Of a stretch of DNA of 35,399 nt, positions 19,413-34,079 are shown in pieces. Source of the DNA: an uncultured Actinomycetes bacterium (GTDB lineage Bacteria; Actinomycetota; Geothermincolia; Geothermincolales; RBG-13-55-18); NCBI GenBank assembly GCA_937128055.1, contig CAKZMC010000177.1:1-35399 (forward strand), written 5' to 3'. The notes below the pieces were generated by a model. The model had not been told where the DNA came from and made no database searches. It saw only the letters and a program-made list of their open reading frames with translations. The position numbers were made by a program, and so were the translations under genes. The first letter of the stretch is position 1. Each line of letters begins with the position of its first letter.

Positions 19413-20204
<792 letters not shown>

Positions 20205-20207
20205 CGA

Positions 20208-20765
20208 GTGGTCGAGGACGTGCTGAAGGACGCGGAGAAGCGCATGAAGAAAGCGGTGGAACACGTGCGGGACGATTTCGCGGCCATTCGCACCGGAAGG
20301 GCGAGCGCCGCCCTGCTGAACAGGGTTTTCGTGAACTACTACGGGCAGCAAACGCCCTTGAACCAACTTGCCTCCATCGCCGTGCCGGAGCCCAGCCTGC
20401 TGGTCGTCTCCCCCTACGACAAGAGCGTCGTAGGCGAGGTGGAGAAGGCCATCCTCGCCTCCGACCTGGGCTTGACGCCGGTGAGCGACGGCAACGTCAT
20501 CCGCCTGCCCATCCCCAAGCTGACCGAGGAGCGCCGCAAGGAGTTGACGCGGCTGGTGAGGTCCAGGGCCGAGGAAGGAAGGGTGGCCATCCGCAACATA
20601 CGCCGCGATGCCATAGAGGACCTGCGCTCCTTCGAGAAGGAGGGGGAGATCACCAAGGACGACCTGCACCGCGGTCAGGACGAGATCCAGAAGCTCACCG
20701 ACCGTTTCGTGGCCGAGACGGACGAGATGTTGAAGGTGAAGGAAAAGGAGCTCATGGAGGTCTGA
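20208..20765 (+). CDS. frr: Ribosome recycling factor
   Basis: A 185-residue ribosome recycling factor, the usual length. With EF-G it splits post-termination ribosomes. Blocks seen: RTGRASAALLNRVFVNYYG, the P-L-N-Q-L-A loop, and the C-terminal helix ITKDDLHRGQDEIQKLTD. The GTG start at 20208 is preceded by GGAGGT. The stop is 3 nt before the TTG start of cdsA. Confidence 0.98.
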   Translation: MVEDVLKDAEKRMKKAVEHVRDDFAAIRTGRASAALLNRVFVNYYGQQTPLNQLASIAVPEPSLLVVSPYDKSVVGEVEKAILASDLGLTPVSDGNVIRLPIPKLTEERRKELTRLVRSRAEEGRVAIRNIRRDAIEDLRSFEKEGEITKDDLHRGQDEIQKLTDRFVAETDEMLKVKEKELMEV

Positions 20766-20768
20766 GCC

Positions 20769-21650
20769 TTGAGCGGCGAGGAGAGGGCCGAGGACACCCG
20801 TTCCCCCCTGAGGGCCCGCTTCGCGGACCTCGCCGCCAGGGTGGTGAGCGCGGTGGTCCTGGTCCTGGTGATGGTCATCCTCCTCTGGTGGGGAGAGATC
20901 CCCTTCACGGTGGGGATAGCCCTCATCACCGCCGGCGGGCTGTGGGAGTTCTACTCCACCTATGCAAGACACGGTTACCGGCCCGCCGCCGCCGTCTCCC
21001 TGGCCGCCGGCTGCGGGCTGCCGGTGGTCGCCTACTTCATTTCCCGCAGCGAGGGGGGAGAGCTCACGCCGCTGGCCATACTCCTGGCCCTCTACCTTCC
21101 CGTCCTCCTCGCCCGGACGCTCTTCGGCCGCCATTCCCAGTCGCCCACCACGGACATGGCGGTATCCCTCCTGGGCGTGGTGCTGGTCGGTTTCTGCCTA
21201 TCCCACTTCGTCCTCATGCTCCGCTTCGACCAGGTGAGCTGGACGACCCCCTTCGCGGTGATCGTCATGGTCTGGGTCTACGATGCCGTCGCCTATTTCG
21301 CCGGCTCCGCCTTCGGAAAGCACAAGGTGGCCCCGCGCATCAGTCCTGGAAAAAGTTGGGAGGGCACGGCGGCGGGCACCGCTGGGGCCTTCCTGGCCGC
21401 CTACATCCTGCAGGTGACCCTGAACCGCGACTGGCTGTCGGTGGCGGTGGCCATGGAGCTGGCCGCGCTGGTCAGCGTCTTCGGGCCCCTGGGGGATCTC
21501 TCGGAGTCCATGGTGAAAAGGGAGCTGGGGGTGAAGGACATGAGCTCGCTCATCCCCGGGCACGGCGGCATCATGGACCGCTTCGACAGCATGTTCCTGA
21601 CCGCCGTGGTCTGCTACTACTTTCTCCGCTACCTGATCATCAAGGCCTGA
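20769..21650 (+). CDS. cdsA: Phosphatidate cytidylyltransferase (CDP-diacylglycerol synthase)
   Basis: A 293-residue membrane enzyme that makes CDP-diacylglycerol from phosphatidate and CTP, the precursor used by the phosphatidyltransferase encoded at 27609. About eight hydrophobic segments are visible. The C-terminal CDS signature is complete: GDLSESMVKRE, K-D, then IPGHGGIMDRFD ending at residue 273. It starts at TTG 20769 with GGAGGT (20757-20762) 6 nt upstream, overlapping the frr end. It closes the rpsB-tsf-pyrH-frr-cdsA unit. Confidence 0.96.
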   Translation: MSGEERAEDTRSPLRARFADLAARVVSAVVLVLVMVILLWWGEIPFTVGIALITAGGLWEFYSTYARHGYRPAAAVSLAAGCGLPVVAYFISRSEGGELTPLAILLALYLPVLLARTLFGRHSQSPTTDMAVSLLGVVLVGFCLSHFVLMLRFDQVSWTTPFAVIVMVWVYDAVAYFAGSAFGKHKVAPRISPGKSWEGTAAGTAGAFLAAYILQVTLNRDWLSVAVAMELAALVSVFGPLGDLSESMVKRELGVKDMSSLIPGHGGIMDRFDSMFLTAVVCYYFLRYLIIKA

Positions 21651-21704
21651 TCCACGCCGCCTGCCGTGCCTTGTGCTCCGGCTCATGAATACCGCCTGAA
21701 GCAC

Positions 21705-21759
21705 GGGACGGGTTTACGGCGCTCCCTCGCTCCCGAAGCCACGGGAGCGGCGTGCCATG
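21705..21759. repeat. 55-bp repeat with hairpin, copy 1
   Basis: An exact copy of 21834-21888, offset by 129 bp. It holds a perfect 8-bp stem CGCTCCCG (21728-21735) / CGGGAGCG (21742-21749) with loop AAGCCA. There is no T run after it. It looks like a REP-type element rather than a terminator. Confidence 0.85.
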
Positions 21760-21833
21760 GTGAGGGCCGGGGGCTGGCCGTCCGCCGCCCCGCGCTCGAA
21801 ACCCAACCCCCGCGGGAGGAAGGTGCATATCCG

Positions 21834-21888
21834 GGGACGGGTTTACGGCGCTCCCTCGCTCCCGAAGCCACGGGAGCGGCGTGCCATG
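21834..21888. repeat. 55-bp repeat with hairpin, copy 2
   Basis: Second exact copy, ending 42 bp before dxr; its stem is at 21857-21864 / 21871-21878. The 74 bp between the copies show no coding or regulatory signal I can name. Two copies with no further units argue against a CRISPR array. Confidence 0.85.
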
Positions 21889-21917
21889 ATGACGTGCTCC
21901 TCGGTGAGGAAGACCTT

Positions 21918-21923
21918 TATAAT
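21918..21923 (+). promoter_or_regulatory. -10 box of a leaderless dxr promoter
   Basis: A perfect TATAAT ends 6 nt before the dxr ATG (21930), so transcription is expected to start at or next to the A of ATG. No Shine-Dalgarno is suitably placed; the nearest purine run, GAGGA (21906-21910), is 19 nt away. The -35 region is weak (TGCTCC at 21895-21900). Confidence 0.55.
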
Positions 21924-21929
21924 GTTCAT

Positions 21930-23153
21930 ATGAGCGAGGCAAACCGTTCGCGAGGGCTGGCCATATTGGGGTCCACGGGTTCCATCGGGACCCAGGCGCT
22001 GAAGGTGGTTTGCAGGCACCCCGAGCGCCTCAGGGTAGTAGCCCTCACCGCCCATCGCAACCTCGCTCTCCTGGAGGAGCAGGCCAGGCGCTTCCGCCCG
22101 GAGATGGTGGGCATGGTGGGCGAGGAGGAGGCGGCGGAGCTGCGGAGACGCCTGGCGGGCACGGGGATAAGGGTATCAGCCGGGAAGGACTGCCTGCTGG
22201 AGGCCGCACGGCATCCCGGTGCGGAGACGGTGCTCAACGCGGTGGTGGGCTCCGCCGGGCTCCCCCCAACCCTTGCCGCTCTCCAGGCGGGGAAACGCCT
22301 GGCCCTGGCCAACAAGGAGAGCATGGTGGCCGGCGGCGAGCTGGTGAGAGAGGCGCTGGGGCACGGCGGGGAGCTGATACCGGTGGATTCGGAGCACGGG
22401 GCGGTGTTCCATTGCCTGCGCGGCGAGGAAATGGAAAACGTCGCCTGCATCGTGCTCACCGCCTCCGGGGGCCCCTTCCGGGGCCGCAGCCGCGAGGAGC
22501 TGGTTTCGGTGACGGTGGAGGAGGCGCTTGCGCATCCCACCTGGAGCATGGGCAGGAAGATAACCGTGGACTCCGCCACCCTCATGAACAAGGGACTGGA
22601 GGTGATCGAGGCGCACTTCCTCTTCGGCCTGCCCTACGAGAGGATAAAGGTGATCATCCATCCCCAGAGCGTGATCCACTCCCTGGTGGAATTCGTCGAC
22701 GGATCCTTCGCCGCGCAGCTGAGCCTGCCGGACATGCGCCTTCCCATATGCCTGGCCCTTTCCTACCCGGAGCGCTGGGGACCTCCCTTCCGCAGGAGCG
22801 CGGTGGCCGAGCTGGGTTCCCTCACCTTCGAGGAGGTCGACCGCGAGGCCTTCGGCTGCCTCGACCTGGCCTACCGGGCTGGCGGGAAGGGGGGCTTGCA
22901 CACCGCGGTCCTCAATGCCGCCAACGAGGTGGCGGTGGAGGCCTTCCTGGAAGGGCGCATCGCCTTTCTGGGCATAGAGGAGGTCATCGGGGCCACCCTG
23001 GATGATTTCCGCCCTGCCCCGCTGCGCTCCCTGGAGGATATCCTGCGCGCCGAGGAGTGGGCACGTTCGCGTGCCGGGGAAGCCGTGAGGGAGCGGGCAG
23101 GGGAGAAGGGCACAGCGGGGAAGCGGCAAACGGGTGGGGGTGGGAGGAGGTGA
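21930..23153 (+). CDS. dxr: 1-deoxy-D-xylulose 5-phosphate reductoisomerase
   Basis: A 407-residue DXR, the first committed enzyme of the MEP isoprenoid pathway, making MEP from DXP with NADPH and a divalent metal. The NADPH loop GSTGSIG is at 14-20. Metal ligands D153 and E155 (VDSEHGAVF) and E224 (NKGLEVIE) are present; NKESMVAG and HPTWSMGRKITVDSA are intact. The common DSEHSA motif reads DSEHGA here. ATG 21930 gives the normal N-terminus; the frame is open upstream through the 55-bp repeats but has no start signal. About 25 C-terminal residues are Gly/Arg/Glu-rich. It overlaps rseP by 4 nt, and ispG of the same pathway follows. Confidence 0.96.
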   Translation: MSEANRSRGLAILGSTGSIGTQALKVVCRHPERLRVVALTAHRNLALLEEQARRFRPEMVGMVGEEEAAELRRRLAGTGIRVSAGKDCLLEAARHPGAETVLNAVVGSAGLPPTLAALQAGKRLALANKESMVAGGELVREALGHGGELIPVDSEHGAVFHCLRGEEMENVACIVLTASGGPFRGRSREELVSVTVEEALAHPTWSMGRKITVDSATLMNKGLEVIEAHFLFGLPYERIKVIIHPQSVIHSLVEFVDGSFAAQLSLPDMRLPICLALSYPERWGPPFRRSAVAELGSLTFEEVDREAFGCLDLAYRAGGKGGLHTAVLNAANEVAVEAFLEGRIAFLGIEEVIGATLDDFRPAPLRSLEDILRAEEWARSRAGEAVRERAGEKGTAGKRQTGGGGRR

Positions 23154-24247
23154 CTGTAATCGTCTACGTGCTGGCCACCCTCGCTGCCGTCATCCTCATG
23201 GTCATCACCCACGAGCTGGGCCACTTCGCGGCGGCCAGGCTGGTGGGAGTGAAGGCCACCGAGTTCTTCGTGGGGTTCGGGCCGCGCATATGGAGCACCA
23301 GGCGCGGCGACACCGAGTTTGGCATAAAATGGATACTGGTCGGCGGGTACGTGAAGATACTGGGCATGAACCCCGAGGAGACGGTGAGCCCCGAGGACTG
23401 GCCCCATTCATACAAGGGCGTATCCCGCCCCCGCCGCTTCTGGATCATCATCTCGGGGTCGCTGGTTCACGTGCTGCTCGCCCTGCTCATCGCCTTCCTG
23501 ACCGTATGGCTCTTGGGGATCCCCGTGCTCACCAGCACGGTGGGCAGCGTCGGCGAGTACATCGAGGAGACGGGGGAAGAGACCCCCGCCCACATGGCGG
23601 GCCTGCAGAAGGGAGACACCATCCTCTCCATGGACGGCGAGGAGATGAGCGACTGGGAGGACGTGCGGGACTTCATCGTCGACAACCCGGGACGTGAAGT
23701 GGAGGTGCTGGTGGAGCGCGGGGGGCGGGAAACCGTGCTCCCGGTGCGCTTGGCGGAACTGGAGAACGGCAGGGGTTTCCTGGGCGTCAGCCCTGAGCCG
23801 GGAGAAGAGCACCACTCCTTCCTCGCCTCCTTCCCGGAGACGGGGAAGTGGTTCCTCGAGTATTCCAGGGGCGTCTTCTACAGCATCTACCGGGTTTTCA
23901 ACCTCTCCACCCTGAAACAGCTGGTGGGCATCACGGAGCCCACGGAGGAGAGGCCGATGACCGTGGTGGGAATCACCCGCGTGGCTGGCGAGCTGGCGGG
24001 AGAGGGCATGTACTACTTCCTCAACTTCCTGGCCTTCATCCTGCTGTTCCTGGCCTACATAAACCTGCTGCCCCTCCCGCCCCTGGACGGCGGGCACCTC
24101 ATGGTGCTCTTGTTGGAAAAGATTACCGGTAAGGATATCGACATGCGCAAGCTCTATCCGGTGGCGGCCGCGGTGCTGGCCTTCTTCACCGTGATGTTCC
24201 TGCTCGCCCTGCGGCTGGACATCACCAACCCCATCAGCCTGCCATGA
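23150..24247 (+). CDS. rseP: Site-2 intramembrane zinc metalloprotease RseP
   Basis: A 365-residue site-2 protease that cuts transmembrane substrates such as anti-sigma factors within the membrane. HELGH (21-25) lies in the first membrane segment. A single PDZ-like domain occupies about 125-205 with HMAGLQKGDTILSMDGE. The second active-site motif is PLDGGH with LDG at 312-314. The start is probably GTG 23150, which overlaps the dxr stop (GTGA) and sits in a strong GGGAGGAGG context, though the spacing is tight; GTG 23168 is the alternative. The gene is in the usual dxr-rseP-ispG order. Confidence 0.94.
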   Translation: MTVIVYVLATLAAVILMVITHELGHFAAARLVGVKATEFFVGFGPRIWSTRRGDTEFGIKWILVGGYVKILGMNPEETVSPEDWPHSYKGVSRPRRFWIIISGSLVHVLLALLIAFLTVWLLGIPVLTSTVGSVGEYIEETGEETPAHMAGLQKGDTILSMDGEEMSDWEDVRDFIVDNPGREVEVLVERGGRETVLPVRLAELENGRGFLGVSPEPGEEHHSFLASFPETGKWFLEYSRGVFYSIYRVFNLSTLKQLVGITEPTEERPMTVVGITRVAGELAGEGMYYFLNFLAFILLFLAYINLLPLPPLDGGHLMVLLLEKITGKDIDMRKLYPVAAAVLAFFTVMFLLALRLDITNPISLP

Positions 24248-25350
24248 CCGTGCGCAAGATGACCAGGCGGGTGATGATCGGGGACGTCCCGGTGGGGGGC
24301 GGGGCGCCGGTCAGCGTGCAGTCCATGACCAACACGCCCACCGAGGACGTCGTGGCGACGCTGAGACAGATAGGGCAGCTGCAAGAGGCGGGGTGCCAGA
24401 TAGTGCGCGTGGCGGTGACCGGAGCGGGGCGCAGCGGCATGCGGCGCGCCCTGCAGTCACTGCGGGAGATCGTGGAGGGTTCACCCCTGCCCGTGGTCGC
24501 GGACATCCATTTCGACCACCGCCTGGCGCTCGTGGCCCTGGAAGCGGGGGTACACGGCCTCCGCATCAACCCGGGGAACATCGGGGGGGAGGAGAAAGTG
24601 GGCGAGGTGGCACTGGCGGCGCGCGCAGCCGGGGTACCCATACGCGTGGGGGTGAACGCGGGTTCCCTCCCCCGCCACATCTTGGCGAAACACGGCCACC
24701 CCACGCCGCGAGCGCTGGTGGAGAGCGCGCTGGAAGAGATATCCATTCTCGAGAAATACGGTTTCTATGATATAAAGGTTTCCGTGAAGGCCTCCTCCGT
24801 CCCGCAGACCATCGAGGCTTACCGGTTGCTCTCACGGGCGGTGGACTACCCCCTGCACCTTGGCGTTAGCGAGGCGGGACCCCCCTGGACGGGGACGGTG
24901 AAGTCGGCGGTGGGCATAGGGACCCTGCTGGCGGAGGGCATCGGGGATACCATAAGGGTGTCCCTGGCCGGGGATCCCGTGGAGGAAGTGAGGGCCGGCC
25001 TGGCCATCCTGCGGGTGCTGGAGATGGCAGAGGGAGGCGCGGACATCGTCGCCTGTCCCACCTGCGCACGCTGCCGCATAGACGTGGCAGCCATCGCCGG
25101 CGAGCTGGAGCGGCGGCTGGCTGACCTGCGACCTCGCCTGCGCATAGCGGTGATGGGTTGCTCGGTCAACGGTCCGGGGGAAGCTCGCGAGGCGGACGTG
25201 GGTATAGCGGGCGGCAGGGAGCGCGGCCTCCTCTTCCGGCGCGGCGAGCCGGTGGGGTGGTTCCCCAAGGAGGAACTCCTTGCCGTACTCCTGCGCGAGG
25301 TGGAGAGGATGGCCGGGGAACGGGAGAAGGAAAGCGGAGAAGGAACGTAG
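24244..25350 (+). CDS. ispG: 4-hydroxy-3-methylbut-2-enyl diphosphate synthase IspG (GcpE)
   Basis: A 368-residue [4Fe-4S] enzyme of the MEP pathway, making HMBPP from MEcPP. Conserved blocks: VSVQSMTNT, VADIHFDHRLA, LRINPGNIG and VKASSVPQTIEAYR. The cluster ligands are C271 and C274 (CPTC) and C306 (GCSVNGPGEA), with E313 as the fourth ligand. The usual CPxCGR reads CPTCARC here, adding a non-canonical C277. It starts on an ATGA overlap with rseP. Confidence 0.96.
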   Translation: MTVRKMTRRVMIGDVPVGGGAPVSVQSMTNTPTEDVVATLRQIGQLQEAGCQIVRVAVTGAGRSGMRRALQSLREIVEGSPLPVVADIHFDHRLALVALEAGVHGLRINPGNIGGEEKVGEVALAARAAGVPIRVGVNAGSLPRHILAKHGHPTPRALVESALEEISILEKYGFYDIKVSVKASSVPQTIEAYRLLSRAVDYPLHLGVSEAGPPWTGTVKSAVGIGTLLAEGIGDTIRVSLAGDPVEEVRAGLAILRVLEMAEGGADIVACPTCARCRIDVAAIAGELERRLADLRPRLRIAVMGCSVNGPGEAREADVGIAGGRERGLLFRRGEPVGWFPKEELLAVLLREVERMAGEREKESGEGT

Positions 25351-25433
25351 AAGAGCGCGTAACGGGGAGGCTGGAGGGCGGAAGCGGGTAACGGCGGGAC
25401 GGAGAGAGGAAGGGTAGCGAGGGAGCAGGCGCC

Positions 25434-27164
25434 ATGAGACAGTCCAGGACCTTCATCCCCACCTTGCGGGAGAGCCCCGCCGACGCGGAGATAGCCAGCC
25501 ACCGCCTCCTGCTGCGGGCAGGCTACCTCCGGCGGGTGGCCTCGGGCATCTACGAATTCCTCCCCCTCGGGGTAAGGGTGCTGCGCAAGATAAGCGGGAT
25601 CATACGCGAGGAGATGAACGCGGCGGGGGCGCAGGAGATCATGCTGCCCGTCCTGCAGCCGCGGGAGCTGTGGGAGGAGAGCGGGCGCTGGGCCAAGTAC
25701 GGTCCGGAGATGATGCGCCTCAAGGACAGGGCGGAGAGGGATTTCGGCCTGGGGCCCACCCACGAGGAGGTCATCACCGACCTGGTGCGCTCCAACGTGT
25801 CCTCCTACCGTGAGCTGCCCATGAACCTCTACCAGATCGGCAGCAAGTTCCGCGACGAGATACGCCCGCGTTTCGGCCTCATGCGGGCGCGCGAGTTCAT
25901 CATGAAGGACGCCTACAGCTTCGACCGTGACGAGGAGGGCATGCGCGAGTCCTACCGCGGCATGTACGAGGCCTACGGCCGCATATTCAGCCGCTGCGGG
26001 TGCACATGGCGGGCGGTGGAGGCGGCCACCGGGCTCATCGGCGGCGACGTCTCCCATGAGTTCATGGTCCCCGCCGCCGCGGGAGAGGATTGCATAGCTC
26101 TCTGCGACCGCTGTTCCTACGCCGCCAACCTGGACCTGGCGGCATACCGCCGCGGCGAACCTCCGCAGGGGGAGGGAAAGGATGTGGAGGCGGTCCGTAC
26201 CCCCGACCGCCGCACCATAGGTGAAGTGGGCGAATTCCTGGGACTTCAGCCGGAGCGCATGATCAAGTGCCTCATGTACCTGGTTGAGGGGAGGCCGGTA
26301 GCCGTGCTCATACCGGGAGACCGGGAGGCCAACGAGGCGAAGCTGGCCCGCGTTTTCGCGAGCGACGAGTTCCGGCTCTTCCGGGAAGAGGATTGGAAGA
26401 AATATCCAACATACCTGCAAGGCTTCGTGGGGCCGGTGGGCCTGGACGGGGTGGAGGTGGTGGCGGATATCTCGCTGCAGGGAGCCGGGGGGATGGCGTG
26501 CGGCGCCAACCGGGAAGACTATCACCTGGTGAACGTGGAGGAGGGCCGCGACTTCTGCGTGGGCCGCTTCGCAGACATAACTAACGCCAGGGAAGGGGAT
26601 GCCTGCCCGCGCTGCGAGGGGAGGTTGCGAATGGAGACGGGCATAGAGGTGGGACAGGTTTTCCAGTTGGGGCTGAAGTATTCGCAGGCCATGCGCTGCT
26701 ACTATCACGACGAGGAGGGCGTTTCCCGCCCCATGTACATGGGCTGCTACGGCATCGGCGTTACCCGCCTCATGGCGGCCGTGGTGGAGCAGCACCACGA
26801 CGAGCGCGGCATCATCTGGCCGCTTTCCGTGGCCCCCGCCCAACTGCACGTCATCCCCCTCGATTTCCAGAAGGAGAACAGGAGAAGGGCGGCGGAGGAG
26901 CTTTACGAGACCTTCGTGCAAAGGGGCTGGGAGGTGTTGCTGGACGACCGCGAGGAGAGCGCGGGGGTGAAGTTCGCCGACGCCGATCTCCTGGGCATGC
27001 CCTTCCGCCTGGTGATCGGCAGAGGATACGACGAGGATGGCACCGTGGAGCTGCAGGAGAGGGCCACGGGACAGGGGGCGAGGATGGATGCGGAGGATGC
27101 CCTTGCCAGGCTCGAAGAATCCTTCCGGTCCTTCCGGAACCTTGCGGCGAGGGACGATGCTTGA
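25434..27164 (+). CDS. proS: Prolyl-tRNA synthetase (bacterial type)
   Basis: A 576-residue class II ProRS of the bacterial type with an inserted editing domain. Motif 1 is in the first 80 residues (E-I-M-L-P-V-L-Q-P). Motif 2 is FRDEIRPRFGLMRAREFIMKD. The INS editing domain lies around 225-390, with an R-T-P-D-R-R-T entry and K-C-L-M-Y. Motif 3 is GCYGIGVTRLMAA, followed by the anticodon-binding domain. The ribosome binding site before ATG 25434 is weak. It follows ispG by 83 bp, as in many actinobacteria. Confidence 0.97.
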   Translation: MRQSRTFIPTLRESPADAEIASHRLLLRAGYLRRVASGIYEFLPLGVRVLRKISGIIREEMNAAGAQEIMLPVLQPRELWEESGRWAKYGPEMMRLKDRAERDFGLGPTHEEVITDLVRSNVSSYRELPMNLYQIGSKFRDEIRPRFGLMRAREFIMKDAYSFDRDEEGMRESYRGMYEAYGRIFSRCGCTWRAVEAATGLIGGDVSHEFMVPAAAGEDCIALCDRCSYAANLDLAAYRRGEPPQGEGKDVEAVRTPDRRTIGEVGEFLGLQPERMIKCLMYLVEGRPVAVLIPGDREANEAKLARVFASDEFRLFREEDWKKYPTYLQGFVGPVGLDGVEVVADISLQGAGGMACGANREDYHLVNVEEGRDFCVGRFADITNAREGDACPRCEGRLRMETGIEVGQVFQLGLKYSQAMRCYYHDEEGVSRPMYMGCYGIGVTRLMAAVVEQHHDERGIIWPLSVAPAQLHVIPLDFQKENRRRAAEELYETFVQRGWEVLLDDREESAGVKFADADLLGMPFRLVIGRGYDEDGTVELQERATGQGARMDAEDALARLEESFRSFRNLAARDDA

Positions 27165-27253
27165 CGGCGTTGACATAGCGAACGGCAGCCTGCCTGCCGG
27201 GCTTCCCGCGAGGACGGCGCAGGAAGACGATGAGGAGCAGCGGAGGAACGACC

Positions 27254-27595
27254 ATGGACAAGTTCGTGACGCATGAGGACCAGTTGGAGTGGGTCCCCGC
27301 CGATTTTCCCCGCGCCCAGATGAAGGTGTTGTACATGGACCCGAGGGGAGGCGGGCAAATACTCCTGGTCCGTTTCGAGCCCCACTGCGAGATGCCCGCC
27401 CACGGACACGCGGCCTCGGACGAGGCTGCGTACGTCCTGGAGGGAAAGTTGCACCAGCCGCTGGAGGGGGGAGAGGAAGAGGTCTTCCGCAAGGGACATT
27501 TCGTCTTCCTGCCCGCTGGCCTGCGGCACGGCCCCTTCATCGCGGGCGAGGAGGGATGCACCATCATCAGCGTCTTCTACGGGCCGCTGCGCTGA
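27254..27595 (+). CDS. Small cupin-domain protein
   Basis: A 113-residue single-domain cupin. Motif 1 is visible as PAHGHAASDEAAYVLEG and motif 2 as GHFVFLPAGLRHGPF, so His and Glu metal ligands are probably present. ATG 27254 has GGAGG (27242-27246) 7 nt upstream; an in-frame ATG at 27230 lacks this. ChrR-like or sugar-binding roles are possible but cannot be told from sequence. It stops 13 nt before the lipid cluster and may be transcribed with it. Confidence 0.82.
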   Translation: MDKFVTHEDQLEWVPADFPRAQMKVLYMDPRGGGQILLVRFEPHCEMPAHGHAASDEAAYVLEGKLHQPLEGGEEEVFRKGHFVFLPAGLRHGPFIAGEEGCTIISVFYGPLR

Positions 27596-27608: not shown

Positions 27609-28244
27609 ATGGGGAGGAGCTGGAGCGTTGACGCCGGCTTGAGGAGATTCTCCAGCACGGTCTTTCATCCCCTGGGGTGGGTCCTGGGCCGCGTCCTCTC
27701 GCCGAATCTGCTCACCACCTGCTCCCTGCTCTCTTCGGTGGCCGTGGGCTACTTCTTCGCCAGGGGGCGTTTCTTCCTGGGGGCGTGGCTCATGTTCCTG
27801 GCGGGGCTCTTTGACATCTGGGACGGGCAGGTGGCCAAGCTGACCGGCAGGGTAACCACCTTCGGGTCCTTCTACGATTCCACCGCGGACCGGGTGGCCG
27901 ACTTCCTCTATTCGCTGGGAGCCCTCTATTACTTCACCGTGGAGAGGATCTTCGACGTCGCCTTCATGGTGGTCGGCTACATGGTGCTTTCCTCGCTCAT
28001 CAGCTACGTGAAGGCCAGGGCGGAGGGGCTGGGTCTCTCCTGCGGGGTGGGCCTTCTCGCCCGCCCACTACGCATGCTCCTCTTCGGCATCCCCCTCTTC
28101 GTCTTCGGTTTCACCGGGAACCTCTGGACTTTCCGCGGGGCTCTCTACCTGGTGCTGGCCCTCGGCGTGGAGACCCTCATGCACAGGCTGCTGGTGATCT
28201 ACCGGGGGGCACGCGACAAGGACGCCCCGGGGCAAGGGGCCTGA
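27609..28244 (+). CDS. CDP-alcohol phosphatidyltransferase, probable phosphatidylinositol phosphate synthase
   Basis: A 211-residue membrane enzyme with about six hydrophobic segments. The CDP-alcohol motif is D69, D72-G73, A76-K77, G86, D90 and D94 with correct spacing, but the usual Arg at 77 is Lys. These enzymes join CDP-diacylglycerol (from cdsA) to an alcohol. The next two genes are an acyltransferase and a PimA-like glycosyltransferase, the order pgsA-patA-pimA known from mycobacteria, so inositol 1-phosphate is the likely acceptor. PgsA (glycerol phosphate) is the alternative. Start ATG 27609 has AAAGGAGG upstream. Confidence 0.85.
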   Translation: MGRSWSVDAGLRRFSSTVFHPLGWVLGRVLSPNLLTTCSLLSSVAVGYFFARGRFFLGAWLMFLAGLFDIWDGQVAKLTGRVTTFGSFYDSTADRVADFLYSLGALYYFTVERIFDVAFMVVGYMVLSSLISYVKARAEGLGLSCGVGLLARPLRMLLFGIPLFVFGFTGNLWTFRGALYLVLALGVETLMHRLLVIYRGARDKDAPGQGA

Positions 28245-28257
28245 GCCGGGGGGCGCT

Positions 28258-29163
28258 ATGCGCAGGGAAGCGCTCTCCGCCGCCAGACTTTCCGGTTACC
28301 TGAACTACTTTTTCCTGCGCTCGTCCTGCTGGCTGGTAGGCAGGTTGCCGGCGCGCGCATCCCATGCCGTGGGCGTGGCGGTGGGCGAGGTCGCCTACCG
28401 CCTCTCGCCCCGCAAGCGCGAGGTGGTTTACGGCAACATGCGCCGCGTGCTCCCGGGCGAAGGGCCGCGCGCCTGGAGGAAGTGTACGCGGCGCTGCTTT
28501 CACGAGTACGCCCGCTACTGGGTGGATTTCCTGCGCTGCTACCACCTCTCCTTCGAGGAGATATACTATTCGCTGGCGGTGCCCCACGGGGTGGAGTGGT
28601 TCGACGAATGCCTGCGGCGGGGCAAGGGAGTGGTGCTGGCGCTTCCCCATTACGGCAGCTGGGACCTGATCGGCGGCTGGGTGGGGCACAATTACCCCTC
28701 CTTCTGGGCGGTGGCCGAGCGGCTCGAGCCGCGGGCCATGTACGAATTCCACACCGAGCTGCGCCGGCGCATGGGCATACGCATCATCCCGCTGGGGGAA
28801 GGGACGGTGGAAAAGGTGATCGAGGTCCTGCTCGCCAACGGTATGGTGGCCCTGCTCTCCGACCGCCTCATCGCGGGGAGCGGGGTGGAGGTGGAGTTCT
28901 TCGGGGAGAAGGTCCTCATGCCCATCGGGCCCGCCCTGCTGGCGGTGAAACTGGGCACGGCGGTGCTTCCCTGCCACATCATCCGCAAGGATGGTGTATA
29001 CCACGGCTACGTGGGGCCTCCCCTGGAAGTGGAGGTCACGGGGGACACCCGGCGTGACGTGCAGGCGAACACCCAGAAACTGGCAAGGGTCTTCGAGCGC
29101 TTCATCCGCGAGGACCCCACCCAGTGGCACATGTTCCAGCCCATTTTCCCCGGGGAAGGGTAA
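28258..29163 (+). CDS. Lysophospholipid acyltransferase family protein (HtrB/PatA-like)
   Basis: A 301-residue LpxL/HtrB-type acyltransferase. The catalytic H-x4-D motif is H131-YGSW-D136 and is followed by substrate-box segments RLIAGSGVEVEFFGE and GPALLAVKLGTAVLP. In the same position in mycobacteria, PatA acylates the mannose of phosphatidylinositol mannosides. The neighbours here (phosphatidyltransferase and PimA-like enzyme) support that role. A Gram-negative lipid A role is unlikely in this context. The start is ATG 28258, 13 nt after the previous stop. Confidence 0.88.
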   Translation: MRREALSAARLSGYLNYFFLRSSCWLVGRLPARASHAVGVAVGEVAYRLSPRKREVVYGNMRRVLPGEGPRAWRKCTRRCFHEYARYWVDFLRCYHLSFEEIYYSLAVPHGVEWFDECLRRGKGVVLALPHYGSWDLIGGWVGHNYPSFWAVAERLEPRAMYEFHTELRRRMGIRIIPLGEGTVEKVIEVLLANGMVALLSDRLIAGSGVEVEFFGEKVLMPIGPALLAVKLGTAVLPCHIIRKDGVYHGYVGPPLEVEVTGDTRRDVQANTQKLARVFERFIREDPTQWHMFQPIFPGEG

Positions 29164-29164
29164 G

Positions 29165-30262
29165 ATGGTCCCCATGAACATCGCGATGGTGACGCCCTAT
29201 TCCTGGGACGTGCCCGGCGGAGTGAACCGCCATGTGGAGCAGTTGTCGAACTGCCTGCGGGAGCGCGGGCACAGCGTGACCGTGATAGCCCCCGGAGGAA
29301 GCACCCGGGAGGACTTCTATTCCGTGGGCGGTTCCTTCGCGGTGTCCGCCAACCGCTCCGTGGCCCACATCGCCTGCGGCCCGCGCATTTACGCGAGGAT
29401 TAGGCGCTACCTGGTGCGACACCGTTTCGACCTCCTGCACCTGCACGAGCCCCTCGTCCCCAGCGCCTCCATGCTCGCGCTGCTGGCGTCGCAGGCGGCC
29501 AACTTGGGTACCTTTCACGCCGCGCGGGAGGGCGGCAGCGCGGGTTACCGGGTCGCCGCTCCCCTGCTGCGGCCGCTGGCCGGGCGCCTGCACGTGCGGG
29601 CGGCGGTGAGCCGCGCCGCCCTGGACCTGGTGTCGCGCTACTTCCCCGGGGAATACCGCATCCTGCCCAATGGCGTGGATACGGCGAGGTTCACCCCCGG
29701 CGGCCCCTCGCTGCCGGGACTGGACCCCCAACGCTTTTACCTTGTTTTCGTGGGCAGGGACGAACCCCGCAAGGGCCTCCAGGTCGTGCTGGACGCCTTG
29801 CCCATGATCCGGCGAGGGCATCCCGAGGTGGAGCTGCTGGTGGTGGGGGCGGAGGGGAGGAGGAGCGGCACGGAGGGCGTGGTGTGGCTGGGAAGGCTGG
29901 AAAGCGAGATGGTGCCGGCCGCCTACCGCTCCTCGCGCCTCATGGTTGCCCCGGCCCTGGGGTGGGAGAGCTTCGGCATCGTGCTGCTGGAGGCCATGGC
30001 ATGCGGGCTGCCGGTGGTGGCCTCGGATATCGCGGGCTACCGTTCCGTTATGCGGCAGGGCGTGGAGGGGACGCTGGTCCCCCCGGGAGACCCGGGAGCG
30101 CTGGCGAGGGCGGTGAACGAGCTGGTGGAGGACGGCGGCAAGAGGGAATCGATGGCCGCGGCCGGCCTGGCTCGAGCGGCTGAATTTTCCTGGGATAAAC
30201 TGGTAGTGGACGTGGAAGCGGCATATGAGGAAGCCGTGCGGGTCCGGGAAGGGTGCGGCTGA
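29165..30262 (+). CDS. pimA: GT4 glycosyltransferase, PimA-like
   Basis: A 365-residue GT-B glycosyltransferase of family 4. In mycobacteria PimA transfers mannose from GDP-mannose to phosphatidylinositol at the inner face of the membrane. The N-terminal loop GGVNRH (18-23), HLHEPLVPS and GTFHA match PimA. The C-terminal donor domain has R198 and K203 (GRDEPRKG) and the E-x7-E pair E268 and E276 (WESFGIVLLEAMACG). ATG 29165 has GGAAGGG 4 nt upstream and lies 2 nt after the acyltransferase stop; the upstream open frame is inside that gene. Sugar and acceptor are inferred from context. Confidence 0.88.
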   Translation: MVPMNIAMVTPYSWDVPGGVNRHVEQLSNCLRERGHSVTVIAPGGSTREDFYSVGGSFAVSANRSVAHIACGPRIYARIRRYLVRHRFDLLHLHEPLVPSASMLALLASQAANLGTFHAAREGGSAGYRVAAPLLRPLAGRLHVRAAVSRAALDLVSRYFPGEYRILPNGVDTARFTPGGPSLPGLDPQRFYLVFVGRDEPRKGLQVVLDALPMIRRGHPEVELLVVGAEGRRSGTEGVVWLGRLESEMVPAAYRSSRLMVAPALGWESFGIVLLEAMACGLPVVASDIAGYRSVMRQGVEGTLVPPGDPGALARAVNELVEDGGKRESMAAAGLARAAEFSWDKLVVDVEAAYEEAVRVREGCG

Positions 30263-30361
30263 GGCCATGCGGTCGGCCGCGTGAGCCGTCGCGGGAAGAG
30301 CGCGCGCCGGGAGCGGCCTGCGGGCCCTTTACCGGCGGAACGAGGGAAGGGATGAGAGGAG

Positions 30362-31324
30362 ATGCGACTGGAGGAGCTGGTGGAGTTCTGCCGCGACCTC
30401 TCCGCCGGGGTAAGGGACCTGGTCCGCCCCCACCTGGGGAAAAAGGAGGCGCGCAGGATGGAGGGAAGGGGGGCCAGCGGGGACTCCACCTTCGCCATCG
30501 ACGAGATGGCGGAACGCATGGTGGAGAAAAGCCTCGCGGACCTGCCCGGCGTGGGGTTCTTCTCCGAGGACCGCGGGCTGGTGGGGTGCGAGGACGCGAG
30601 CTGGGTCCTGGTGGTGGACCCCATAGATGGCACGCGGCCTGCCGCGGCAGGCCTGGAGGCGTGCTGCGTTTCCGTAGCGGTCGCCGCCTATGATCCTCGG
30701 GAGGAGGCGCGCACCGTCCTCGGCGATGTGGTCTACGGGCTGGTCCGGGAGATAAAGAACGATGCCTGGTTCGAGGCGAGACGGGGAGGCGGCTCCCGCA
30801 TGGTCATCGACGGGGAGGAGAGGGAGATCACCATCCACCCCCACCACGACCTCTCCACCCTCTTCTGGACGCTGGGCTTGCGGGGACGCCCCGCCCTTCC
30901 CACCGCCCTGGTCCTCGAGGAGCTCATCGATGCCTCCAGCGTGGATGGCGGCATCTTCGACCTGGGGAGCGCCGCCTTCTGCATCACCCGCCTCCTCACC
31001 GGGCAACTGGACGCCTACGTGGACGTGGGAGACCGCATGCTGAGGGAGGTTCCGCAACTCGAGGGGATGTTCCTGCGTTGCGGGCACGGCCATGCCCTCA
31101 ACAATTCCTCATACGACCTGGCCGCCGCCAGCCTCATAGCCGGCGAAGCGGGGTTGGCCATCGGCGACGCTTTCGGCAGGTCGCTGGACGGGTACCCGCT
31201 GCTGGCTTCGGGAAGGGAGGGGCAGCTCTCCTGCGTCGCCGCGGTCACCCCGCGGCTATACGAGGCGATCGTGGCTTGCATCGACGTGGGAATGGCGCGC
31301 ATGCGGGACCATTACGGATGGTGA
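30362..31324 (+). CDS. Inositol monophosphatase-family phosphatase
   Basis: A 320-residue member of the IMPase/FBPase-like superfamily. Metal-site residues are visible: E69 (FFSEDRG), DPIDGT (86-91) and D252 (YDLAAASLIAGEAG, where the family usually has WD). A GDSTFAIDEMAE segment precedes them. It is longer than the usual ~260 residues. It directly follows pimA after 99 bp that carry no clear promoter. Because phosphatidylinositol phosphate from the upstream synthase must lose a phosphate before mannosylation, this is a good candidate for that phosphatase. Ordinary inositol-1-phosphatase activity is the alternative. Confidence 0.85.
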   Translation: MRLEELVEFCRDLSAGVRDLVRPHLGKKEARRMEGRGASGDSTFAIDEMAERMVEKSLADLPGVGFFSEDRGLVGCEDASWVLVVDPIDGTRPAAAGLEACCVSVAVAAYDPREEARTVLGDVVYGLVREIKNDAWFEARRGGGSRMVIDGEEREITIHPHHDLSTLFWTLGLRGRPALPTALVLEELIDASSVDGGIFDLGSAAFCITRLLTGQLDAYVDVGDRMLREVPQLEGMFLRCGHGHALNNSSYDLAAASLIAGEAGLAIGDAFGRSLDGYPLLASGREGQLSCVAAVTPRLYEAIVACIDVGMARMRDHYGW

Positions 31325-31333
31325 GCGACGCCT

Positions 31334-31969
31334 ATGAGCCTGGCATCCATCTTCTTCGTTTCCCTGGGCGTGGGGCTTTCCGGCGCCCTCATGCCGGGGC
31401 CCTTGCTCACGGTGACCATAAGCGAGTCGTACCGCCGCGGTTTCATCGCCGGCCCCCTGCTGGTGGCGGGTCATGCGGTGCTGGAGGGAAGCCTGGTGAT
31501 CCTCCTCATGCTGGGTCTGGACCGCGTGGTGGGAAACGACGTCTTCTTCGGCCTGGTGGGGGTGGCGGGGGGCGCCTTCCTCTTCATGATGGGATTGGGG
31601 ATGGCCATCGACGTCAGGGACGGCAAGCTGCGCCTGGACCTGCAGGACCGCTCCGCGAGCCGCCTCGGGCCTTTCTTATCGGGGCTCACCATCAGCCTCT
31701 CCAACCCTTACTGGTTCATGTGGTGGGCGACCTTCGGGTTGAGCTGGATGCTGCGCTCGCTGCAGCGCGGGGTCGCGGGGGTGGTTTTCTTCTACTCCGG
31801 ACATATCATGGCCGATGTTCTCTGGTATTTTCTGGTGGCCATGCTGGTGGTCACGGGCAAGCGTTTCCTCTCCGACCGCGTTTACAACTGCGTCATCCTG
31901 GCTTGCGGCGCCTTCCTGCTGGTGCTGGGGGCCAGGTTCGTCGGTGACGGCCTGGCCCACCTGCTTTGA
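31334..31969 (+). CDS. LysE/RhtB-family amino acid exporter
   Basis: A 211-residue polytopic membrane protein of the LysE superfamily, with about six hydrophobic segments and the family motif GALMPGPLLTVTI near residues 17-29, plus SNPYWFMWW in the third or fourth segment. These proteins export amino acids or related small cations. The substrate cannot be read from sequence. It starts 9 nt after the phosphatase and probably ends that transcript. Confidence 0.85.
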   Translation: MSLASIFFVSLGVGLSGALMPGPLLTVTISESYRRGFIAGPLLVAGHAVLEGSLVILLMLGLDRVVGNDVFFGLVGVAGGAFLFMMGLGMAIDVRDGKLRLDLQDRSASRLGPFLSGLTISLSNPYWFMWWATFGLSWMLRSLQRGVAGVVFFYSGHIMADVLWYFLVAMLVVTGKRFLSDRVYNCVILACGAFLLVLGARFVGDGLAHLL

Positions 31970-32326: not shown

Positions 32327-32890
32327 GTGGTTTGGGTCATCGTGATAATCGCGGTACTGGTTTTCCTTGTCATATCCTGGATAGTCTACTATTACAATAA
32401 GCTGATACGCGACCGCAACCGCGTGGACAACGCCTGGCACCAGATCGACGTGCAGTTGAAACGGCGCTACGACCTCATCCCCAACCTGGTGGAGACGGTC
32501 AAGGGCTACGCAGCGCACGAAAAGGAGGTCTTCGAGAAGGTAACCCAGGCGCGCGCCATGGGTATAAGCGCGCAGACGGTGGGGGAGCAGGCACAGGCGG
32601 AGAACGCCATCTCCCAGGCCCTGAAGACCCTTTTCGCCGTGGCCGAGAACTACCCGGACCTGAAGGCCAACCAGAATTTCCTCATGCTGCAGGAGGAGCT
32701 CGCCGGGACGGAATCCAAGATCGCCTTCGCGCGCCAGTTCTACAACGACAGCGTGATGTCCTACGACACCGATCGGCAGCGTTTCCCCGGCAATATCGTC
32801 GCCGGCATGTTCTCGGGCACCTTCACCCCGCGCGAGTACTTCGAGATCGAGATCGCCGCGGAGCGGGCCGCCCCCAAGGTGGAGTTCTGA
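32327..32890 (+). CDS. lemA: LemA family protein
   Basis: A 187-residue LemA protein: one N-terminal membrane segment (about 2-23) and a long helical domain with the family pattern [20 protein letters not shown], followed by [10 protein letters not shown] and FPGNIVA. The function of LemA is not well understood; it is often encoded with HtpX, as here. The GTG start at 32327 is backed by AAAGGAGGT (32311-32319) with ideal 7-nt spacing. Confidence 0.95.
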
Positions 32891-33092: not shown

Positions 33093-34079
33093 GTGACCTT
33101 CTACGACCAGATATCCAAGAACAAGTGGAAGACGGCGGTGCTGGTCTCCGTGTTCATCGCGTTCATCCTGCTCCTCGGCTTCTTAGTCGGCTACATCTGG
33201 GGGCCGGAGAGGGCCCTGGTGGGCCTGATTATCGCCACCGTGGTGGCAACCATTATGGCTTTTGCCAGTTATTACCATAGCGACAAGGTAGCCCTGGCAG
33301 CCGCCGGTGCGCGGCCGGTCACCAGGGAGGAATATCCCTATTACGTGAACACCGTGGAGGGCCTGGCTATCGCCGCGGGATTGCCCATGCCCCGCACCTA
33401 TATCATCGAGACCCCGGCCATGAACGCCTTCGCCACCGGCCGGGACCCGGAGCATGCGGCCGTGGCGGTGACCAGGGGCCTTCTGGAATCCTGCAACCGG
33501 CTGGAGCTGGAGGGTGTCCTCGCCCACGAGATGTCCCACATAAAGAACTACGACATACGGCTCATGAGCATGGTGGTGGTCCTGGTGGGGCTGGTGGTCA
33601 TCTTCAGCGAGGTGCTTTTCCGCATGTTCCTCTTCGGCGGAGGCGGGCGCAGGCGCGACGAGGGCGCAGGCGGGCTCGGCGGGGAGGGCGCGGGCATCAT
33701 CTACCTGGTCATCATGGTTGTCGGGCTCGTCTTCCTCGTCCTCTCGCCCGTCATAGCCCAGCTGCTGCAACTGGCCATCTCGCGCCGCAGGGAGTTCCTC
33801 GCCGACGCCAACGGGGCCATGCTTACCCGCTACCCGGAAGGACTGGCAGGCGCCCTGGAGAAGCTTACCGCGCAGGCCAGACCCTTCCCGCGCGCCAGCA
33901 AGGCCACCGCCCATCTCTTCATCGTGCAGCCCTTCCGCAAGCAGGGAGGCGAGCGCATCCACCGGCGTTCCAGCATCTGGGACACCCACCCGCCCATCGA
34001 GGAACGCATCCGGCGCCTGCGTGCCATGGCCGGCATGGAGGGCATGTATACCCAGGCGCAGAGGGAATCCATGGCCTGA
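33093..34079 (+). CDS. htpX: Membrane zinc metalloprotease HtpX
   Basis: A 328-residue M48-family protease that degrades misfolded membrane proteins. Two N-terminal membrane segments (about 14-36 and 40-60), then HEMSH (145-149) with SHIKNYD, two further membrane segments (about 155-177 and 193-218) and the downstream zinc-ligand Glu in SRRREFLADANGA. A Gly/Arg-rich cytoplasmic loop (about 183-203) separates the last two segments. The GTG at 33093 has AAGGAG (33079-33084) 8 nt upstream. The 202-bp gap after lemA is GC-rich and shows nothing I can call, so both genes may share a transcript. Confidence 0.95.
   Translation: MTFYDQISKNKWKTAVLVSVFIAFILLLGFLVGYIWGPERALVGLIIATVVATIMAFASYYHSDKVALAAAGARPVTREEYPYYVNTVEGLAIAAGLPMPRTYIIETPAMNAFATGRDPEHAAVAVTRGLLESCNRLELEGVLAHEMSHIKNYDIRLMSMVVVLVGLVVIFSEVLFRMFLFGGGGRRRDEGAGGLGGEGAGIIYLVIMVVGLVFLVLSPVIAQLLQLAISRRREFLADANGAMLTRYPEGLAGALEKLTAQARPFPRASKATAHLFIVQPFRKQGGERIHRRSSIWDTHPPIEERIRRLRAMAGMEGMYTQAQRESMA

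Follow-up and report, generated by a model that had tools for sequence, protein, structure and literature searches.

In mycobacteria, the synthase makes phosphatidylinositol phosphate (PIP), which must be dephosphorylated. The phosphatase converting PIP to phosphatidylinositol (PI) constitutes a missing step of PI-mannoside (PIM) and lipoglycan synthesis in actinobacteria, mycobacteria included. It was still called unidentified in 2019 (PMC6506517) and in 2022 (PMC9385802), in agreement with an earlier note on the DNA studied here, which had regarded this enzyme as not firmly assigned; this no longer holds for all bacteria, as Bacteroides very probably uses BT_1525, a protein of the PgpA family, as its PIP phosphatase (PMC9246714).

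Mycobacterial-type gene clusters contain the genes for PIP synthase (PIPS), PatA, and PimA in the same order as is found upstream of a gene of the inositol monophosphatase superfamily (hereafter IMPase) at positions 30362..31324 of the window, i.e., of the whole stretch of 35,399 nucleotides that was analysed (all features of the window given in the following lie on the + strand). In those clusters, however, PimA is followed by a NUDIX gene and there is no IMPase, whereas in the window the IMPase comes after PimA. From this context, the earlier note had proposed that the IMPase fills the PIP-phosphatase gap. The lipid-gene neighbours, the presence of Ino1, and the synteny speak for this proposal, but a relative possessing the pathway without the gene (genome G001), the loci of family f28, and carriers of the gene that are devoid of PIPS speak against it; the present survey weakens the case for the adjacent IMPase in this role, and it defines a single-copy IMPase subfamily with signature residues of its own.

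Reading frame, fold and active site of the IMPase

The reading frame (320 aa) begins with ATG, has an AGGAG just upstream and an in-frame stop at 30353, and exhibits a G+C content of 68% (87% at third codon positions). The sole Pfam match of the protein is Inositol_P (PF00459; 70.4 bits, cut-off 27), which places it in the superfamily, and its AlphaFold model (mean pLDDT 93) adopts the IMPase fold. The best Foldseek matches of the model are AF2372 and MJ0109 (target-length TM-score 0.87-0.89), and a profile search of the PDB likewise matched archaeal IMPase/fructose-1,6-bisphosphatases (IMPase/FBPases) best. The earlier note had described an intact IMPase-fold gene with D86, D89, and D252, and this description is confirmed, the residues being exactly those named and the fold a predicted one. 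Judged from its sequence and its orthologues, this is a real, conserved gene for a metal-dependent sugar- or inositol-phosphate phosphatase.

Concerning curated families, none of the NCBIfam equivalog cut-offs is passed by the protein. The closest family is NF009321 (bifunctional FBPase/IMPase), with 88.2 bits against a cut-off of 264, whereas TIGR02067 (HisN) reaches 27.8 bits (cut-off 275), with no aromatic motif 5, and NF008027 (SuhB) 17 bits (cut-off 332), with FDLGSA and no Arg pair in place of the missing RRxGSAAL. PMC5516325 distinguishes five groups of actinobacterial IMPases, and by its motifs the protein fits none of them; as PF00459 is its only match, it does not belong to the PgpA-type PIP phosphatases represented by BT_1525.

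The metal site is fully retained: E69 of the SED motif, a metal ligand of the IMPase fold (codon 30566..30568), D86 and D89, and D252, the third metal-ligand Asp (codon 31115..31117), do not vary in any of the 57 orthologues. In the metal/phosphate motif DPIDGT (D86-T91, codons 30617..30634), D86, P87, D89, and G90 are invariant in the 57-orthologue alignment and T91 is found in 55; D47 is present as well. The subfamily is characterised by FWxxGxRGRP, FDLGSA, an NN pair, and an insertion of around 24 residues. In the window the first of these motifs reads FWTLGLRGRP (F168-P177, codons 30863..30892; W169, R174, and R176 invariant in alignment A1 and in the 57-row alignment), and R225, N247, and N248 are the further invariant pocket residues. 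The insertion is missing from the solved relatives, profile positions 218 to 245 being aligned to 206 to 209 of 9vep and 219 to 246 to 211 to 214 of 9j90; its two helices (residues 223-240, codons 31028..31081), situated beside the metal site, both appear in the model. These signature residues mark the IMPase as a member of a distinct, single-copy subfamily of deep-branching Actinomycetota.

Gene neighbourhood in the window and in its class

The lipid genes are preceded by a cupin-domain gene (27230..27595; PF12973/PF07883), which occurs in families f1-f3 only. The order PIPS (27609..28244), PatA-like PIM acyltransferase (28258..29163; NF005919, 220.6 bits, cut-off 209), PimA-like GT4 mannosyltransferase (29174..30262, with the probable start MNIAMVTPYSWDVPGGV; PF00534/PF13439), and IMPase is as the earlier note had given it. 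The assignment of the first gene, a CDP-alcohol phosphatidyltransferase of the PIP synthase type, rests on several features: its score against NF045883 (PIPSynth) of 116 bits does not reach the cut-off of 170, yet this is the best NCBIfam model, followed by archaetidylinositol phosphate synthase; the catalytic motif D..DG..A[RK]..G...D...D is present, and in an alignment with reference PIPS the residues of the inositol-phosphate pocket (SYxKARAE, RPxR) are kept. Within the CDP-alcohol transferase motif, the PIP synthases of the class exhibit DG..AK, whereas the reference PIPS have DG..AR. The PimA-like enzyme shares around 40% identity over around 365 aa with PimA of mycobacterial-type loci. 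Only 9 bp downstream of the IMPase, a LysE-type translocator gene begins (31334..31969; PF01810), followed by a LemA family gene (32327..32890; PF04011) and, at the end of the conserved array, by a gene for an HtpX-like protease (33093..34079; named from sequence and synteny); LemA and HtpX are found at this place throughout the class and also in f28 loci without IMPase. Ahead of the lipid cluster (19446-27164), genes named from sequence as pyrH, frr, cdsA, dxr, RseP-like, ispG, and proS are situated, of which CdsA (CDP-DAG synthase) would supply the CDP-DAG used by PIPS.

The genome to which the window belongs (2.7 Mb, 99% complete) revealed no second PF00459 gene, such that the IMPase is present as a single copy. 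Ino1 is encoded elsewhere in this genome, which makes its product available as a substrate of the IMPase; it was detected with PF01658, as PF07994 missed even the Corynebacterium glutamicum control. No phosphatase candidate was found in the surroundings of Ino1 and of the GT20 gene. With PIPS, the PatA-like and PimA-like enzymes, and Ino1 all encoded, a capacity of the organism for PI and PIMs is plausible.

Within the class, one IMPase orthologue each is found in 28 of 31 genomes (47-86% identity, far beyond chance), and PF00459 is single-copy in every one of these 28; Ino1 is likewise found in 28 of the 31. In around 25 of the 28 genomes, IMPase and PIPS are located on one contig, usually 3-7 kb apart, and the lipid and IMPase genes in such linked loci often overlap or nearly touch. 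The most constant neighbour of the IMPase is the LysE-type gene, separated from it by a small gap or overlapping with it in nearly every locus of the class. A gene on the opposite strand is situated between PimA and IMPase in six genomes (G002, G003, G004, G008, G009, and G012), and in G006 the lipid genes PIPS-PatA-PimA (L126) and the genes IMPase-LysE-LemA-HtpX (L106) are found at separate loci. In G001 (99% complete), LemA follows around 135 bp after PimA without IMPase, LysE, or any remnant of them, and no PF00459 match exists in the whole genome, whereas Ino1 and PIPS-PatA-PimA are kept; G001 is a single MAG, for which a missing contig with an IMPase copy constitutes a small residual risk. 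Where LysE and PimA part, the IMPase stays with the former, as is evident from the separate loci of G006, the intervening genes in several f4 and f6 loci, and the joint absence of IMPase and LysE from G001.

The short gap between PimA and LemA of G001 is filled by a near-perfect inverted repeat (L125:11861-12040; CTTAACTTTGGGGTCAGGT...), which resembles a small mobile or REP-type element and occupies the place of IMPase and LysE in the relatives. Furthermore, PatA and PimA of families f4, f6, and f7 are separated by a divergently oriented pair, made up of a gene of the PAP2 superfamily and a partner of around 358 aa (PAP2 gene at L099:11705-12349 and L125:10088-10771, equivalents in L100-L104, L124, and L126); the IMPase-less G001 has this pair too. 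As a rival PIP phosphatase, this PAP2 gene is a weak candidate: it exhibits PSN(A/P) in place of PSGH, it is encoded on the opposite strand, and the f1 loci do not contain it.

Distribution across the phylum

Around 57 of 397 genomes contain an orthologue, with a gap in the scores from around 190 down to 76 bits; the orthologue tree was built from confirmed match coordinates. Outside the class, at least 13 genomes of six families (f10, f11, f12, f37, f55, and f63) possess an orthologue without a recognisable PIPS, PIPS scoring 95 bits or more against NF045883 and the best matches of these genomes reaching 45 bits or less. The co-occurrence with PIP synthase genes suggested by the earlier note as a check is therefore not found. 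Conversely, the order in the loci of f28 is PIPS-PatA-PimA-LemA-HtpX with nothing between PimA and LemA, also in G059, whose genome is a single contig; mycobacterial- and streptomycete-type loci continue after PIPS-PatA-PimA with other genes, and all 40 PIPS loci of the control set lack an IMPase homologue. The earlier note had named as decisive against its proposal a relative with the same lipid cluster and without the gene; G001 is such a relative, and f28 and the mycobacterial-type loci lack the IMPase at this place as well. Owing to the carriers without PIPS, its absence from G001, and its absence from all 40 control loci, the IMPase does not track the PIM lipid pathway.

The linkage of the IMPase to PIPS-PatA-PimA recurs in an Acidimicrobiia-like lineage (L197, L198, and L208) and in f13 (L233). 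The simplest reading is that the IMPase, together with LysE, entered an older PIPS-PatA-PimA-LemA-HtpX array; because of this recurrence, the opposite course, i.e., an old linkage to the IMPase that was lost elsewhere, is also conceivable.

Different neighbourhoods are found in Thermoleophilia, where the arrays have the order HtrA, (deacetylase), IMPase, (AmmeMemo radical SAM), TreT, and GT20. The GT4 neighbour there is TreT, and its identification as PimA was rejected. Of the 80 named loci, 29 outside the class (e.g., L071, L078, and L080) have the IMPase together with TreT and/or GT20, often accompanied by an AmmeMemoRadiSam radical SAM gene and HtrA.

Concerning PIPS itself, in families f27, f32, f34, f43, and f46 it is followed (usually) by Ino1 and by a fusion of 620-714 aa between a PimA-like GT4 and a phosphoesterase domain of the PHP type (L266-L274, L276, L277, L279-L286, L289, L290, and L295). 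The PHP metal motifs DLHMHT, TDHN, EExKT, HPFD, and GSDxH are carried by 22 fusions, among which three rows of the motif scan deviate or had one motif missed by the pattern. The fusion occurs in genomes with an IMPase orthologue (e.g., G183, G272, G365, and G373) as well as in genomes without one (G124, G143, G173, G232, G203, G349, and G134), such that PIPS is accompanied by the PHP domain rather than by the IMPase. No homologue of this fused PHP type was found in the loci of the class that were examined, and neither a GT4-PHP fusion nor an actinobacterial PIP phosphatase is reported in the literature searched, outside of which most subscription journals lie.

Candidate roles and comparison with known systems

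The reading that we consider somewhat more probable than its alternatives taken together is that of a soluble inositol- or sugar-phosphate phosphatase belonging to a distinct actinobacterial subfamily. As a phosphomonoesterase of the inositol monophosphatase superfamily, the IMPase would be soluble, Mg2+-dependent, and probably dimeric; metals held by E69, D86, D89, and D252 would activate a water molecule, and this water would hydrolyse the monophosphate of a small soluble polyol or sugar. As the sole enzyme of its superfamily found in the genome, it would most likely have a housekeeping function on soluble inositol 3-phosphate, the product of Ino1, and/or on other sugar phosphates, and would not be a dedicated phosphatase of PIP. 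No single pathway covers all carriers, and a soluble small-molecule phosphatase recruited to varied neighbourhoods fits best. Such a role leaves unexplained the strong synteny with PIPS-PatA-PimA in the class, in the Acidimicrobiia-like lineage, and in f13. Since the pocket is rebuilt, with the invariant W169, R174, R176, R225, N247, and N248 and the insertion, the enzyme may act on something other than a simple monophosphate of inositol or a sugar.

A lineage-specific PIP phosphatase is the next alternative: PIPS would join CDP-DAG and inositol 3-phosphate to give PIP, the 3-phosphate would be cleaved off by the IMPase at the inner surface of the membrane, and the PI so formed would be mannosylated by PimA. 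This scheme appears rather doubtful to us. The order PIPS-PatA-PimA-IMPase in most genomes of the class, in the Acidimicrobiia-like lineage, and in f13 argues for it, as do the presence of Ino1 and the finding that the clusters of f1-f3 and f5 contain no further gene recognisable as a phosphatase; moreover, a PimA-like enzyme of Thermoleophilia is fused to a phosphatase domain of another superfamily, which makes a phosphatase plausible at the spot of the IMPase. A PIP phosphatase of this kind should, however, be present wherever PIPS-PatA-PimA is present and absent where PIPS is absent. The former does not apply to G001, which has the pathway without any PF00459 gene, to f28, in which PimA directly precedes LemA and HtpX, and to the mycobacterial-type loci, and the latter does not apply to the PIPS-less carriers of the six families. 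In Thermoleophilia, furthermore, the orthologue lies with TreT/GT20, while PIPS has its own phosphatase-like partner, and, to our knowledge, all characterised PF00459 enzymes use soluble substrates. G001, f28, and the genomes without PIPS are the informative ones for the PIP-phosphatase question.

By gene-fusion logic, the PHP domain would act on the substrate or the product of the mannosyltransferase to which it is fused, and PIP dephosphorylation would be the obvious missing step for it. It is a better candidate than the IMPase for the missing PIP phosphatase, and a concrete and more testable one, although we put only slightly less than even chances on its supplying this activity in the PIPS-Ino1 operons of the Thermoleophilia type. 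That the PHP domain in the Thermoleophilia type and the IMPase next to PimA in the class of the window are both, as non-orthologous enzymes, PIP phosphatases is a joint assumption which we regard as unlikely; several unrelated solutions would not be surprising, as Bacteroides uses a third, PgpA-type enzyme (PMC9246714).

In other bacteria, enzymes of the IMPase superfamily are known to dephosphorylate histidinol phosphate and the phosphate of a riboflavin precursor. A function in another biosynthetic pathway of this kind is in accordance with the single housekeeping copy and with the precedent of Aquifex aeolicus, in which an IMPase performs the riboflavin step (PMC12051542), the structure 9mmi being the third structural match of the model. 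We nevertheless consider it very unlikely, because the aromatic motif 5 of HisN is missing (TIGR02067, 27.8 vs 275 bits), no riboflavin or histidine gene was recognised in the neighbourhoods read, and G001 lives without the IMPase.

Slightly less credence still is given to a phosphatase of a trehalose-type osmolyte pathway, acting on trehalose 6-phosphate or on a glucosyl-polyol phosphate and kept from a Thermoleophilia-like context: the IMPase adjoins TreT and/or GT20 in the 29 loci mentioned above and a GT20 gene is present in G000, but six carriers of the IMPase (G014, G002, G011, G098, G207, and G246) have no GT20 above the cut-off, such that this role is not general, and the GT20 gene of the window's genome lies on another contig among unrelated neighbours. 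Least probable of all is a gluconeogenic FBPase comparable to the bifunctional enzymes of archaea, to which the closest curated family (NF009321), the closest structures (AF2372 and MJ0109), and the existence in f11, f12, and most of f27 of the orthologue with neither GlpX nor class V FBPase would point; the 88 bits fall far below the cut-off of 264, and for the class this role is rejected, since 28 of the 29 class genomes searched, among them the one to which the window belongs, encode a class V FBPase (around 600 bits), and gluconeogenesis there does not need the IMPase (GlpX was not found in 15 class genomes searched).

Compared with the known systems, the IMPase of the window shares the fold and the residues of the metal site with the archaeal enzymes AF2372, MJ0109, and PH1897 (NF009321), and its N-terminal half can be aligned to archaeal IMPase/FBPases (E down to 1e-19 by profile); the identity amounts to around 20%, and the insertion of around 24 residues and the FWxxGxRGRP and NN motifs distinguish it from them. 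With the actinobacterial SuhB, ImpA, HisN, CysQ, and Cg0911 groups (PMC5516325), it has the superfamily and the metal motifs in common, whereas at motif 5 it reads FDLGSA where those groups have RRxGSAAL or RxR, motif 6 of the subfamily mostly has Ala in place of Gly, and the aromatic motif of HisN is missing. The reaction of BT_1525 is the one proposed for the IMPase of the window, but the two proteins belong to unrelated families (PMC9246714).
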